From Prochlorococcus marinus bv. HNLC2 (lineage in GTDB: Bacteria > Cyanobacteriota > Cyanobacteriia > PCC-6307 > Cyanobiaceae): 64,000 bases of DNA. The notes below the pieces were generated by a model, which made no database searches, was not told the DNA's origin, and saw nothing but the letters and a program-made list of their open reading frames with translations. Made by a program: the position numbers and the translations under genes. Positions 21,989-32,895 of the stretch are shown piece after piece. Numbering within the stretch: the first letter of the stretch is position 1; each line of letters starts with the position of its first letter. The DNA lies in assembly GCA_000218745.1 (NCBI GenBank), contig GL947595.1:1019082-1083081 (forward strand), in the 5' to 3' direction.

Positions 21989-22136
21989 TCTAATTTAAAT
22001 TTTTTAATACCATAAGGGAATTCAAAGAGAATGCTCTCAGTATTTATACCTATATGTTTACATAAAAAATTATTATTACATAAGTTTGCAGCAATAATTA
22101 CATATTAAAAAAAATTTTTTACTCTAAAAATAAAAT

Positions 22137-22166
22137 AAAAAAAGAAGGAGCCCTTCCAGGCTCCTT
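22137..22166 (-). terminator. Intrinsic terminator of tmRNA
   Basis: On the minus strand an 8-bp perfect stem AAGGAGCC/GGCTCCTT (22145-22166) with a 6-base loop is followed by a T-rich run. It ends the ssrA transcript and is the clearest intrinsic terminator in the window. Confidence 0.85.
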
Positions 22167-22420
22167 GAGTCATTTGGTTGATAAGGCTGACTTAACCCCA
22201 TCTCCTAGTTATCAAGCAGCAACTGGTGCTGTTTGACGGGAGAAACTAACGATTTTGTTAGCGTTTATGTGTTTGCTCTAACCGAGCAGGCTTCAGTCAT
22301 CTTCCTTATACCCCGTCGAAACCATTACAACCCCTTGAGTGGAGCTGAGCGGAATCGAACCGCTGTCCGAAATATCGGTTGAGATCACCTAGTCCAGATG
22401 GACATTTATATTCTGACAGG
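22145..22420 (-). ncRNA. ssrA: Two-piece (permuted) tmRNA
   Basis: tmRNA frees stalled ribosomes and tags the incomplete protein. On the minus strand the acceptor piece comes first (about 22420 to 22340): it has a T-arm with GGTTCGATTCC and ends CAGCTCC plus discriminator A. Only five bases (CTCAA, 22335-22339) separate it from the coding piece, which begins GGGGTTG at 22334 and runs to the terminator. GGGGTTG and CAGCTCC pair as the 7-bp acceptor stem, proving the permutation. CCA is not encoded and must be added. This circular permutation is known in the Prochlorococcus and marine Synechococcus group. The 5' end of the acceptor piece is approximate. Confidence 0.93.
22212..22262 (-). other. 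tmRNA proteolysis tag frame
   Basis: The resume codon GCT at 22262-22260 starts the tag ANKIVSFSRQTAPVAA, followed by TGA and TAA. The end with hydrophobic VAA fits recognition by ClpXP-type proteases. Confidence 0.93.
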
Positions 22421-22478
22421 CAAAATAAATAATGGATAGTTATTTGACTATTTTTCAAAAATGTTTTGAATTATTTTT

Positions 22479-25151: not shown

Positions 25152-25300
25152 ATGGAAAAATTTTTAATGGAATATTCAAAAAAAAATTTAATTCGTGCCA
25201 ATTAATTTCAGAGATAAATTAAAAATTTACAATATTCTTAATATATCTATTGAGATTTCTCAGAAATTAGCTAATCTTACTTAGCTATTGAGACGTCCGA

Positions 25301-28300
25301 TTGGTATACATCAATCAGGTCGAGTTTGAAAATTTTAAATCTTTTGGAGGAAATATTTCTATTCCTCTTGAAGAAGGTTTTACTGTGGTTACAGGACCTA
25401 ATGGTTCAGGTAAGAGTAATATTCTTGATGGAATACTTTTTTGTTTAGGCTTAGCTAACAGTAGAGGAATGAGGGCCGATAGATTGCCTGATTTAATAAA
25501 TACTTCGAAAGTAAAAGAGGGTAAATCTTCAGAAACTTCAGTTTCAGTGAGATTCAATATTGAAGGTTGGTCTCAAAGAGAAGAAGCTGCAGATTTAGAT
25601 ATTGAAGAGGAGCATTTATCTTTTACTAAAGAACAAAAAGAATGGGTTGTTTCAAGAAAATTAAGACTAATGCCAGGAGGTTCTTATGCCTCAACGTATA
25701 CCTCTGATGGAAAGCCATGTAATTTGCAACAGATTCAAAAACTTTTAAGGGATATAAGGGTAGACCCAGAAGGAAGTAACGTTGTAATGCAAGGTGATGT
25801 AACAAGAATTGTATCTATGAGTAATAGGGAAAGAAGAACACTCATTGATGAACTAGCTGGAGTTGCATTATTTGATACTAGGATTGAACAAACTCACTCT
25901 AAACTTAATGATGTGTATGAAAGGCAAGAAAGATGTGAAATTTTGCAAAACGAATTACAAGCAAATAAATTAAAACTTGAAAAAGAATGCGAAAAAGCAA
26001 AGATATATAAAAAATTAAAACAAAAATGTGGTGAGCTTTCAGAACTAAAAAAAGTTATTTTGTATCAAGATCAAGTTAAAAGAATTGAGGAGATTAGAAA
26101 AAAGGATTTAGATTTAGATGAACAAAAGAAGCAATTAATCTTAAAACAAGAAAATTTATCAAAAGAAATTCAAATTTTGATGAATACACTACAAGTTATA
26201 GATTCTGAGTTAAAAGAAAAAGGCGAAGATAATTTAATTAAAGTTAATTCTGATATTGGAGGAATTAACACGAGCTTAAGAGAATTAGAAAGATTATCTT
26301 CCATAAATAAAAATGAAGGCCAAAAATTAAAAGATAGTAGAGATATGATTGCAATATCCAAAAAAAATTTAGAGATTGAAAAGAATCAATTAGATTCATT
26401 TGATGAGACTGCATTATTTAACTTAGAAAAAGAAATAAAAAGCTTATCTGATACTCATAAATTATCTAGACAAAAACTTTCAAAAGCTGCTGACCAGTCA
26501 GGAGAATTGTCTAAGAAAAATCAACAAATCAATAGTGAAATTGAAAGCCTTCAAAATCTGATTGAACCATTGAATTCAAAAAAAAGAAATCTTGAAGAAG
26601 AGATGATTGAAAATAATATTCAAAGAGATGAAATTTCTTCTCAGATAGAATCACTATCAGAAGATAAAAAAACTATTTTTAATTTGGAAACTAATCATCA
26701 ATTAATGATTAATGAAAAGAAAAAACACTTAACTACGATTCAATCAAAAATTAATGATTTACAAACTGATATTACATTATTGTCTAAAACAATTACTAGG
26801 GTCAGCGAAGAAAGATTAAAATTAGAAAAAGATTTGTCTAGATTTGAAAGTCGAAAAGAGGCATTGAATGAGACTAGAGGTTCATACTCATTAAGGATTC
26901 TTCTTGAATCTGGATTAGAAGGTATTCATGGTTATGTTGCTCAATTAGGAGAGGTGAATGAAAAGTATAGGTATGCACTGGAAATCGCTGCAGGAAATCG
27001 ATTAGGCCAGATCGTTGTAGATAATGATTCTGTAGCAGCAAAAGCTATTGATATTCTTAAAAGGAAAAAAGCGGGAAGATTAACTTTTTTACCTCTCAAT
27101 AGGATTAAAAATTATTCAAAAAATCAGTAATCACTCGTGTTTGGCAAAATGATCACATTGGTTATATAGATAAAGCTATAAATTTACTTAAATTTGATGA
27201 AGTTTATCATGATGTTTTTAAATATGTATTTGGAGAGACCCAGGTCTTTTCTGATTTAACTTCAGCAAAATCTATAAAGTTAAAAAATAGAATAGTAACT
27301 CTTCATGGTGAACTTCTTGAGAGTAGTGGTGCTATTACTGGTGGAAGTAAGCTAAATAGAGATTTAGCTTATAAATTTGGCTCTAATAATGAAATTGATG
27401 AAGTAAGTCCAATAAAGCAAAGGTTATTAACAATTAATGATTCGATTAATACCGCAAATAGCGAGTTATCAAAAAAAAATATTAAATTAGAAAATCTAAT
27501 TAAAGACTATAGACAATTTAATGATGAGTTAGTAGCAATAACCAAGGAAAAAGATCTTAACAAAGCTCTTTAAAGAATGTTGCAGAAAAGATCGTTTTAA
27601 ATTCTAATAGATTAGGGAAACTTAATGATCAAAATAATTTATTAAAAATAAATTTAAAGAAAATTATAAATATATTTTTGCCTCAACAAAAAAAATTGGA
27701 TAATTTAAAAAGTTCTCTTAAAGAAAATTATAAACAAAATCCAAATGAATCAATTTCAAATATAAATAAAGATTTTGAAGGAGTTGATATTGAACTTGAA
27801 AAACTTATGAAACATAGGAATAACATATTAGAGCAAAGAAATCAGACAGAGCTAAATAAAGAAAGAATTTTAAATGAGCAAAAACTTATATCTGTTAAAG
27901 AAAAGAATCTTGATGAATCTATAAAAAAATTGGCTAAATCACATTCTGAATGGATCCTTAAAAGAAATGATTTACAAAAAGACCTAGCAAGTCTTGAGAA
28001 AAAGAAAAAAATTCTTGAAAAAGACTTAGGTGTTTTACGTAGGAAAAGAGATGAATTAAATTCAAAGATTTCAAATAAAAGACAAGAATGTAATGAAGTA
28101 GAACTCAAAATAGATTATTTAAATCGCGATAAACATGCACTTTCTGAAGAAAAAAGAATAGAGAGTATTAAGCTAGATGAATATCATAAGGAACTACCAA
28201 ATCCTCTTCCTGATTTTGGTGAATATGCGAATAAAGATATCAATTACTTTCACTCTGAAATTTCATCTTTAAATTCAAAATTAGAAAGTTTAGAACCTGT

Positions 28301-28883
28301 TAATATGCTTGCGCTAGATGAGTTAGAAGAGTTAGAAGAGCGATTAAATGCTTTAGTTGAAAGACTCACTATTTTATCCAATGAGCGATCAGAATTGCTT
28401 TTAAGAATTGAGACTGTTTCAACAATGCGCCAGGAAGCATTTATGGAGGCGTTTTCAGAAGTAGATAAACATTTTAGAGAAATTTTTGCATTACTATCTG
28501 ATGGTGATGGATTTCTTCAGTTGGAGAATAACAAGATGCCTCTAGAGGGGGGGTTGACTTTAGTTGCTCATCCTAAAGGTAAAAATGTCAGGAGATTAGC
28601 TTCAATGTCAGGAGGAGAAAAGTCTTTGACAGCATTAAGTTTTTTATTTGCTCTCCAAAAATATAAACCATCGCCTTTCTATGCTTTAGATGAAGTTGAT
28701 AGTTTCTTAGATGGCATAAATGTAGAAAGATTATCAAAATTAATATCATCTCAGTCATCAAATGCACAGTTTATAGTTGTAAGTCACCGCAGACCTATGA
28801 TTAGCGCATCCATGAGAACTATTGGAGTTGCACAAGCAAGAGGTGCTCATACACAGGTGATAGGTCTTCCAAATGCTGCATAA
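25301..28883 (+). pseudogene. smc: Chromosome segregation protein SMC, two frameshifts
   Basis: The span encodes about 1194 residues, the usual SMC length. The N-terminal head has Walker A VVTGPNGSGKSNILDGILF; long coiled coils surround a hinge (about 520-680, GIHGYVAQLGEVNEKYRYALE); and the C-terminal head has [19 protein letters not shown] and the Walker [11 protein letters not shown]. The frame changes near 27120 in an A-rich run (GKIDK hinge part follows as VWQNDHIGYIDKAINLL) and again near 27570. The start is TTG at 25301. SMC compacts and separates the chromosome; it would be badly truncated if the shifts were real. The intact C-terminus argues for sequence error. Confidence 0.92.
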
Positions 28884-29938: not shown

Positions 29939-31201
29939 TTAATTACTTATTGAATCGATTATTAATCTCGTTAATTTTTGAACAGCTCCTAAACTTCCGC
30001 GCTCTTTCTTTAAATTTCGTCTTTGATCTTGTAAAAGATTTGAATTACTAAGTAAGTATATTGCTTCATCAGCAATTTCTTTTGGTTGTATTTCTCCAAT
30101 TCTTTCTGGAACTATAAGTCTTTTGGCTTTGATATTTGGCCATGCAAAAAATTGTTTATTATTTAGATACCAATTTTTTACGCACGTTGAAATAATTTTA
30201 TTAATTATTGGTATTTTTCCAATAATTCCAAATATGCCATCCCATGAATTCATTAGATTTAAATGTTGTGTTGGAAGGACTACAATCATAGGAAGGTTGA
30301 TCGCAGCTAATTCTGCGGTATTCGCTCCCACTGTTGTTATTGCTAGCTCGCATTGTCTTAATATTTGATTCGAAGGACTACTTGAAATTAAATAAATTTT
30401 TGTATTATTTTCGGTCTGTAGTTCATAATGAAAGATAGATTCTTCTAATTTTTTAATATATTTAATTTTCGAAGAATAATTTCTTGCTAATGGATTTTTA
30501 TTGCTCTGATAATATAAAAAATCTTTTATATTTGTCGTTGGAGCAATAGGAATCATCAATTTAATATCACTGCTACTTGATGAAATATGATCAGCCATTT
30601 CTAGGAAAAATGGTATACCAATAGATAATTTAGTTTTTTTTGAGCCAGGTAAAATTGCTATCCATCTTTCATTTTTCATTTCAAAAGTATATTTACCTTC
30701 ATGGTTTATATCGGCCATTAAATCGCCCACTATTCTGCATTTTTTTTGATATTTGAACGGTAATCTTTGTTTTACTTTTTCATTCATTGCCGCAATAGAT
30801 GAATTCCATCTAGGCCATCTCGCTTCCCACTCTGCATATGTAATACATTTATATCCAAGCCTTTTCGCTAGTAAAACGCTCCATAATTGATCGCCTCCAA
30901 GAAATACTACTATTCCACTATCTGGCCATTTTATGAAGGAAGAAGGGTTAATTAATAATTGCCAAAACTTTTTTGCAGGAGTAACAAGATCTAAGTCTGG
31001 CCATTTTTTAGCTATTTCATATTCATTGCCATTTGCATTTGGACAAGGAACAAGAATTAATCTCAGGTGAAAATCAATGTGTCTTTTGGATTTTAAAGTT
31101 AGTATTTCTTTTTTTAAATTATTTATAACTGGCTTTACCCAAGTAGTTAATTCTCCAGGTCCATTTGAGATAATAACCACTGCAACTGATTTTTTTTTCA
31201 T
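29939..31201 (-). CDS. LpxB-related glycosyltransferase-like protein
   Basis: A 420-residue protein related to lipid-A-disaccharide synthase, a cyanobacterial family usually described as 'lipid-A-disaccharide synthase-related'. VVIISNGPGELTTWVKP at the N-terminus corresponds to the LpxB GExSGD-like start, and LPGSKKTKL plus ITTVGANTAELAAINLPM form GT-B donor-binding blocks. The start is placed at ATG 31201 because the longer frame upstream runs into the tRNA-Leu gene. In cyanobacteria lacking lipid A of the normal type its product is unknown. A real LpxB role cannot be claimed. Confidence 0.75.
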   Translation of the reverse strand: MKKKSVAVVIISNGPGELTTWVKPVINNLKKEILTLKSKRHIDFHLRLILVPCPNANGNEYEIAKKWPDLDLVTPAKKFWQLLINPSSFIKWPDSGIVVFLGGDQLWSVLLAKRLGYKCITYAEWEARWPRWNSSIAAMNEKVKQRLPFKYQKKCRIVGDLMADINHEGKYTFEMKNERWIAILPGSKKTKLSIGIPFFLEMADHISSSSSDIKLMIPIAPTTNIKDFLYYQSNKNPLARNYSSKIKYIKKLEESIFHYELQTENNTKIYLISSSPSNQILRQCELAITTVGANTAELAAINLPMIVVLPTQHLNLMNSWDGIFGIIGKIPIINKIISTCVKNWYLNNKQFFAWPNIKAKRLIVPERIGEIQPKEIADEAIYLLSNSNLLQDQRRNLKKERGSLGAVQKLTRLIIDSISN

Positions 31202-31229
31202 TGCAGTCAACCAAAGTAATTTATGAAGT

Positions 31230-31310
31230 GCGGACGGCGAGACTTGAACTCGCAAGGCCTAAGCCACACGCTCCTTAGACGTGCGCGTCTACCAATTCCG
31301 CCACATCCGC
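31230..31310 (-). tRNA. tRNA-Leu, anticodon AAG
   Basis: An 81-base type II tRNA on the minus strand. The acceptor stem GCGGATG pairs with CGTCCGC; the D arm GCGGAATTGGTAGACGC and T arm with GTTCAAG are standard for leucine tRNA. The anticodon stem is CACGT/GCGTG (closed by a T-G wobble) around the loop CTAAGGA, so positions 34-36 read AAG. The variable arm is long, as expected for leucine. CCA is not encoded. A34 in leucine tRNA is uncommon in bacteria; it needs deamination to inosine to read CUC or CUA. Identity as leucine is firm, the A34 reading is from the sequence as given. Confidence 0.9.
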
Positions 31311-31545: not shown

Positions 31546-32895
31546 ATGGTCCAAAAAGTTTTAATCGCTAATCGTGGAGAAATCGCTTTACGAATTATCA
31601 GAAGTTGTAGAGAACTTGGTATTGCTACTGTAGCTGTGTACAGCACAGTAGATAAAAATGCTTTACATGTGCAATTAGCTGATGAAGCAGTTTGCGTAGG
31701 AGATTCATTGAGTAATAAGAGTTATTTAAATATTCCAAATATTCTTGCTGCAGCCACTTCAAGAGGGGTTGATGCAATTCATCCTGGTTATGGTTTTCTT
31801 GCAGAAAATGATAAATTTGCTGAAATGTGTAATGATCATGGAATTATTTTTATAGGCCCATCGCCAAATTCGATTAGGTTAATGGGAGATAAATCAACGG
31901 CAAAGGAGACAATGGATGGTGTCGGGGTGCCCACTGTGCCAGGGAGCAAAGGTTTACTGGTGAGTATTGATAAGGCATTTAAATTGGCAGATCAAATGGG
32001 GTATCCTGTAATTATTAAAGCTACTGCGGGTGGTGGTGGAAGGGGTATGAGACTTGTTGAGAAAGCTGATACCTTAGAAAAAATGTTTAAAGCTGCTCAA
32101 GGTGAAGCAGAAGCTGCTTTTGGTAATGATGGACTTTATATGGAAAAATTTATTAAAAAACCTCGTCATGTAGAGGTTCAAATCTTAGCTGATAAGTCTG
32201 GTAATGTAATTCATCTAGGAGAAAGAGACTGTTCTGTTCAAAGAAGACATCAGAAATTGCTTGAGGAATCACCCAGTCCAGCTATTAATAAAGAATTAAG
32301 GGAGAAGATGGGTAATGCTGCTATAGCTGCTGCCAAAAGTATTAATTATGAAGGTGCTGGAACGGTTGAGTTTTTAGTAGATGAAAATGAAAAATTTTAC
32401 TTTATGGAGATGAATACTAGGATTCAAGTTGAACATCCAGTCACAGAAATGGTAACTGGTGTTGATCTTATAGCTGAGCAAATTAAAATTGCTGCTGGTC
32501 AAAATTTGGAATTTAATCAAGAACAGATTCAATTAAATGGACACGCTATCGAATGTCGAATTAATGCTGAAGATCCAACTCATAATTTCAGGCCATCTCC
32601 TGGAAGAATAACAGGATGGTTGCCTCCCGGAGGGCCAGGAGTAAGAGTAGATAGTCATGTTTATACTGGCTATGAAATACCTCCTTTTTATGATTCTTTA
32701 ATCGGTAAGCTTATAGTGTGGGGCAAAGATAGAAATACAGCAATAAAAAGAATGAACAGAGCTTTAAATGAATGTGCTGTGACTGGAATACCTACTACAA
32801 TAAATTTTCATTTAAATTTGCTTGAAAAACAAAAATTTAAAGAAGGAAAAATTCATACTAAGTATGTAGAAGAAGAATTGCTTCCTAATTTCTAG
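31546..32895 (+). CDS. accC: Acetyl-CoA carboxylase, biotin carboxylase subunit
   Basis: A 449-residue ATP-dependent enzyme that carboxylates biotin on AccB, the first committed step of fatty acid synthesis. [16 protein letters not shown] starts the pre-ATP-grasp domain; [15 protein letters not shown] is the glycine-rich ATP loop; [15 protein letters not shown] holds the metal-binding residues; and [14 protein letters not shown] is the carboxylase C-domain motif. The frame is intact and of normal length, and the start is ATG at 31546 after an AT-rich upstream region of about 230 bp. Confidence 0.97.

Follow-up and report, generated by a model that had tools for sequence, protein, structure and literature searches.

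How a small cyanobacterial genome comes to carry a leucine tRNA with adenosine at the first anticodon position, and which codons such a tRNA would read, are questions raised by a gene of 82 bases, without encoded CCA, in Prochlorococcus marinus bv. HNLC2. In the stretch of 64,000 nucleotides analysed here (the window), the gene occupies positions 31229-31310 of the minus strand, with the anticodon loop CTAAGGA (tRNA positions 32-38) at 31272-31278 and the anticodon AAG at 31274-31276. ARAGORN placed a tRNA-Leu(AAG) on the minus strand at 31228-31310, and the Rfam tRNA model (RF00005) matched 31229-31310 with 51.6 bits (E 3.6e-8). The sequence contains the acceptor (GCGGATG/CGTCCGC) and anticodon (CACGT/GCGTG) stems, a loop C32-U-A34-A-G-G-A38 and an A as discriminator, and a Leu-tRNA pattern with AAG found this single match in the window and none in 100 shuffles. 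The Leu body and the NAG anticodon make it a leucine tRNA, which by locus and body is the ortholog of tRNA-Leu(GAG). For the bare RNA, the fold of lowest predicted energy differs from the cloverleaf, so that the evidence for a tRNA comes from ARAGORN, Rfam and conservation; together with the sequence, these confirm the tRNA-Leu and the loop of the preliminary description; its coordinates (31230-31310, given without a strand) were correct to within one or two bases.

A sequencing error at A34 was rejected because the AAG pattern recurs in most genomes of the genus (65 of 68) and in part of those sampled from the family (105 of 400), AAG and GAG counts at both levels being undercounts, as this first Leu pattern misses GGTATAC bodies. 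Moreover, an identical 82-base tRNA occurs in Prochlorococcus sp. W8, the nearest named locus, with an AccC 98.7% identical. Among the genomes missed by the first pattern, five from a group that we call g56 carry AAG and two from group g4 carry GAG. Three drafts of the same genus (G331, G384 and G398, listed as 93-99% complete) showed tRNA-Leu(UAG) only and no CUY-type tRNA-Leu, owing either to assembly gaps or to a real loss.

The host genome (1.48 Mb in a single contig, listed as 95.87% complete) contains 34 tRNAs according to Rfam. A whole-genome ARAGORN search gave the Leu anticodons UAA, CAA, UAG and AAG, with tRNA-Leu(UAG) as the other CUN reader, together with tRNA-Arg(ACG). Leu GAG and Leu CAG are absent from this list, which may be incomplete, as Arg(UCU) and Ser(UGA), both expected to be required by a cell, are also lacking; a pattern search of the host genome for Leu GAG gave no match. 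Because no Leu GAG was found, tRNA-Leu(AAG) looks, from the gene set, like the only dedicated CUU/CUC reader of this genome. An earlier suggestion that one tRNA could serve CUU, CUC and CUA is weakened in its last part, as the presence of tRNA-Leu(UAG) makes such a reading of CUA unnecessary. The genome also encodes TadA, found as a PF14437 match (E 9.9e-27) at C1:526105-526536 in a 170-aa frame, with the E. coli TadA structure 1z3a as best PDB match and with an NCBIfam TadA score of 114 bits (E 4.8e-33) that lies below the model cut-off of 150 bits. A second PF14437 match in the genome is weak (E 5e-4).

In our opinion, it is highly probable that tRNA-Leu(AAG) works in its inosine form as a dedicated reader of CUU and CUC, and that the usual tRNA-Leu(GAG) gave rise to its gene in place, with positions 32 and 38 changed for TadA. 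The deaminase, required anyway for tRNA-Arg(ACG), would convert A34 to I34, and the resulting tRNA, presumably charged with leucine, would read CUU, CUC and probably CUA, with tRNA-Leu(UAG) covering CUA and CUG. The loop would have passed from UUGAGGG to CUAAGGA and so have come to resemble closely that of tRNA-Arg(ACG), CUACGGA; C32 and A38, the pair contacted by TadA, would have come with A34 because A34 alone would be a poor substrate.

The origin in place can be followed through the neighbourhood of the gene. The tRNA is flanked downstream by an lpxB-like glycosyltransferase gene (29939-31201, minus strand, start ATG at 31201; PF02684, E 1.5e-11), and on its other side by accC, encoding biotin carboxylase (31546-32895, plus strand; PF00289, PF02786, PF02785). 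Elsewhere in the window, the smc gene (25292-28883, plus strand) is divided into three overlapping frames (25292-27130, 27109-27573 and 27561-28883) by two frame changes, which are either assembly errors or the mark of a broken gene, and an ordinary permuted cyanobacterial tmRNA with the tag ANKIVSFSRQTAPVAA lies at 22121-22429 on the minus strand (RF01851, 290.8 bits). Both tRNA neighbours were found in all 108 Cyanobiaceae loci compared, which had been picked for holding a CUY-type tRNA-Leu (L104, with its tRNA cut at a contig end, was excluded); accC is partial in two of them (L043 and L161). The loop occurs in two states, UUGAGGG (55/108) and CUAAGGA (53/108), with no intermediate forms among these loci. 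A single body is common to 35 GAG loci and reappears, with three loop bases changed, in 26 AAG loci belonging to 16 groups. An origin from tRNA-Leu(UAG) was rejected, as body and locus match those of tRNA-Leu(GAG). Among 400 family genomes none held both the AAG and the GAG tRNA, in a by-eye comparison of pattern tables that variants can escape, and these pattern searches indicate that one form replaces the other; mutual exclusion of A34 and G34 is already in print (PMC8007984, in the text available to us).

The two states are scattered over a tree of the AccC and LpxB-like proteins (847 columns), a tree of the locus and not of the species, which gave 11 state changes (11-13 in bootstraps), and its well-supported branches force at least six. 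Positions 32 and 38 changed along with 34 in all six independent AAG/GAG pairs on supported branches (sign test p 0.031). A single AAG clade in the locus tree was rejected (p-AU 3.8e-105), a result also expected if the AAG form, instead of arising by repeated mutation, had a single origin and spread to other picocyanobacteria through transfer or gene conversion of the tRNA itself. We regard such a spread as possible, though somewhat doubtful: it would fit both the identical body of the 26 AAG loci, shared also with 35 GAG loci, and the lack of intermediate loops, but in group g34 the flanks of 8/8 AAG loci are nearest to those of a GAG sister, G301. These flanks follow the host lineage right to the boundary of the tRNA, which places the change within the gene and would confine any transferred tract to about 82 bases. 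Moreover, in group g56 the AAG loop sits in another body, which has a different anticodon stem, and the loops UUAAGGA and UUAAGGG, found in other phyla, make stepwise routes possible.

Pairs at positions 32 and 38 also tune the ribosome binding of anticodons, and the main rival to reading the coupled change as the making of a TadA substrate is that it tunes decoding. A34 would then stay unmodified, the tRNA would mainly read CUU, and CUC would be read poorly or by another tRNA. Other Leu tRNAs have indeed anticodon-typical 32/38 pairs (for example UUCAGGU for CAG, UUUAGGU or CUUAGGA for UAG), AAG with the loop UUAAGGG exists in some lineages, and the E. coli TadA does not edit the tRNA-Leu(AAG) of Streptococcus pyogenes (PMC11472039, in its accessible part). 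We nevertheless consider an unmodified A34 very improbable. The Streptococcus tRNA-Leu(AAG) carries I34 according to the available text of two papers (PMC13249217, PMC11472039), the S. pyogenes TadA edits it, and from mRNAs an expanded motif YUAMGRA was derived (PMC11472039, same part), which CUAAGGA fits. Position 35 alone separates the Leu loop from that of the host tRNA-Arg(ACG), and Arg loops have G37 in 44 of 45 matching cyanobacterial genomes (57 searched with a pattern that fixes C32 and A38). In the consulted portions of further work, TadA contacts the C32-A38 pair (PMC11802342, PMC8216470), and the E. coli enzyme no longer edits an AAG tRNA after any of the changes tested at 32, 37 or 38 (PMC11066159). 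In view of these findings, the coupled 32/34/38 change is most readily understood as the creation of a TadA substrate. Deamination of A34 to inosine, which the preliminary description took as a need, is thus probable in Prochlorococcus by analogy, given the TadA gene, the A34 of the tRNA gene, the fit of the loop to the motif and the Streptococcus precedent.

The same coupling was looked for beyond the family, in samples of related genomes that do not represent independent events. Matches were found in 78 of 146 Cyanobacteriota genomes (73 GAG and 5 AAG, all five in Cyanobiaceae; 68/146 without match), in 50 of 138 Lactobacillales (25 GAG and 25 AAG, of which one has the unusual loop AUAAGGG and is perhaps not a Leu tRNA; 88/138 without match) and in 79 of 144 Verrucomicrobiota (80 matches, 60 GAG and 20 AAG; 65/144 without match). 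None of the 158 GAG loops of the three samples had C32 or A38, and among the 50 AAG matches C32 occurs in 40 and A38 in 46, with a search pattern that excludes C38. In AAG genomes of other groups, a GAG match was found in 0/32.

A scan of public species genomes gave at least 120 stretches, 117 of which were confirmed as tRNA-Leu(AAG); three, all from Bacillota (L247, L273 and L279), were not confirmed and were left out of the loop counts. Among the matches listed, the 117 confirmed loci cover at least 18 named phyla, plus four loci without phylum, although many are metagenome bins whose single phylum labels may be wrong. The notion that A34 leucine tRNAs belong to only a few bacterial groups is not supported in view of this spread, and cyanobacteria and Firmicutes, both named beforehand, are indeed among the carriers. 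The loops of these loci, again among the matches listed, are CUAAGGA (89), UUAAGGA (20), UUAAGGG (7) and UUAAGGU (1). The first two, 109/117, fit YUAMGRA, which speaks against an unmodified A34; the other eight lack A38, which is therefore not obligatory everywhere. The loop UUAAGGG, without A38 and C32, was seen in L171, L175, L223, L224 and L244 and in the Verrucomicrobiota genomes G756, G747 and G816; such tRNAs would go with either an unedited A34 or a differently adapted TadA. Caldisericota, Cryosericum and part of the Verrucomicrobiota are the lineages known here to have this loop.

If the tRNA was reshaped to meet TadA, the enzyme could have changed as well. Among 30 genomes drawn from the two states, a TadA was detected in 27 (25/28 Cyanobiaceae and 2/2 outgroup). 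The three genomes where it was not found, G085 (AAG, 93% complete), G079 (AAG, 64%) and G014 (GAG), are all less than 94% complete, the first two being the only ones among 15 other AAG genomes searched. An alignment of 28 TadA proteins (27 relatives and the host) revealed no residue fixed according to tRNA state. A single variable column had disjoint letters between groups, and as it was picked after the fact it was not used; co-adaptation of TadA is thus unsupported. Adaptation of the enzyme may still be needed, because the E. coli TadA leaves the S. pyogenes tRNA unedited. One TadA site has H in 26 of 26 Cyanobiaceae (L035, L333-L357) and N in two of two other cyanobacteria (L358, L359) and in E. 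coli. From the alignment we infer that it may correspond to a published 32-38 contact, N123 of the Staphylococcus aureus TadA (PMC8216470, available text), and the H-for-N site is a starting point for the idea that the enzyme was already prepared before the switch. A wider proposal, on which we find ourselves evenly divided, is that the bacterial CUY-reading tRNA-Leu alternates between two states, a G34 loop and a loop suited to TadA, with six or more changes within the Cyanobiaceae and separate ones in other phyla. Positions 32, 34 and 38 would move as a unit since TadA reads the 32-38 pair, and the deaminase would be recruited to a second tRNA mainly by reshaping that tRNA, the enzyme family being already permissive.

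The inosine switch could also be driven by, or drive, a leucine recoding that favours CUU and CUC, of the kind that PMC13249217, in its accessible text, proposes for Lactobacillales. Our codon data, which cover the window and 20-kb stretches from 33 genomes and use mechanical ORFs, make this unlikely. The AAG genomes of group g34 are richer in CUU+CUC as a share of CUN (mean 0.554, n=8) than the GAG ones (mean 0.433, n=12), but the highest share of the 20 genomes, 0.598, belongs to the GAG sister G301. Groups g4 (GAG) and g56 (AAG) are nearly alike in leucine codon use, and by eye the differences track base composition. With no step at the GAG/AAG switch, codon recoding there is unsupported, which speaks against simply carrying the recoding idea of PMC13249217 over to these genomes and cautions against assuming that A34 leucine tRNAs drive recoding.

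The Prochlorococcus tRNA-Leu(AAG) itself is already known: a 2026 paper, in its accessible part, lists it from GtRNAdb together with that of Mycoplasma, devoting one sentence to Prochlorococcus, and places almost all bacterial tRNA-Leu(AAG) genes in Bacilli (PMC13249217). With at least 18 named phyla, these tRNAs are not solely a Bacilli feature. For the repeated coupled switch at 32/34/38 and the wide phylum spread, no report was found in the literature searched, which left most subscription papers out of reach.

Three known tRNAs are close to the one described here. The tRNA-Leu(GAG) of other Cyanobiaceae is its ortholog at the same locus, with an identical body in many genomes, and differs in its loop, UUGAGGG, at 32, 34 and 38. 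The tRNA-Arg(ACG), the standard TadA substrate, shares six of seven loop bases with the host tRNA-Leu(AAG), although it is an arginine tRNA with C at position 35. In the tRNA-Leu(IAG) of Lactobacillales (Streptococcus, Oenococcus), A34 likewise replaces GAG and TadA is the enzyme (PMC13249217, PMC11472039, in the parts available), and 20 of 25 AAG matches in that order have the same loop CUAAGGA as Prochlorococcus. Phylum and tRNA body are different, however, and the editing demonstrated there is only probable in Prochlorococcus. Moreover, the Leu and Arg loops of S. pyogenes differ at 35 and 37 (PMC11472039, same parts), whereas those of Prochlorococcus differ at 35 only, and the Cyanobiaceae show no codon-use step, unlike the recoding proposed for Lactobacillales. 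The available text of PMC11472039 raises the question of how a strict TadA comes to accept a second tRNA. The Cyanobiaceae make a direct test of it possible, since sister lineages in this family are distinguished by three bases in the loop of a single tRNA, encoded at the same locus.
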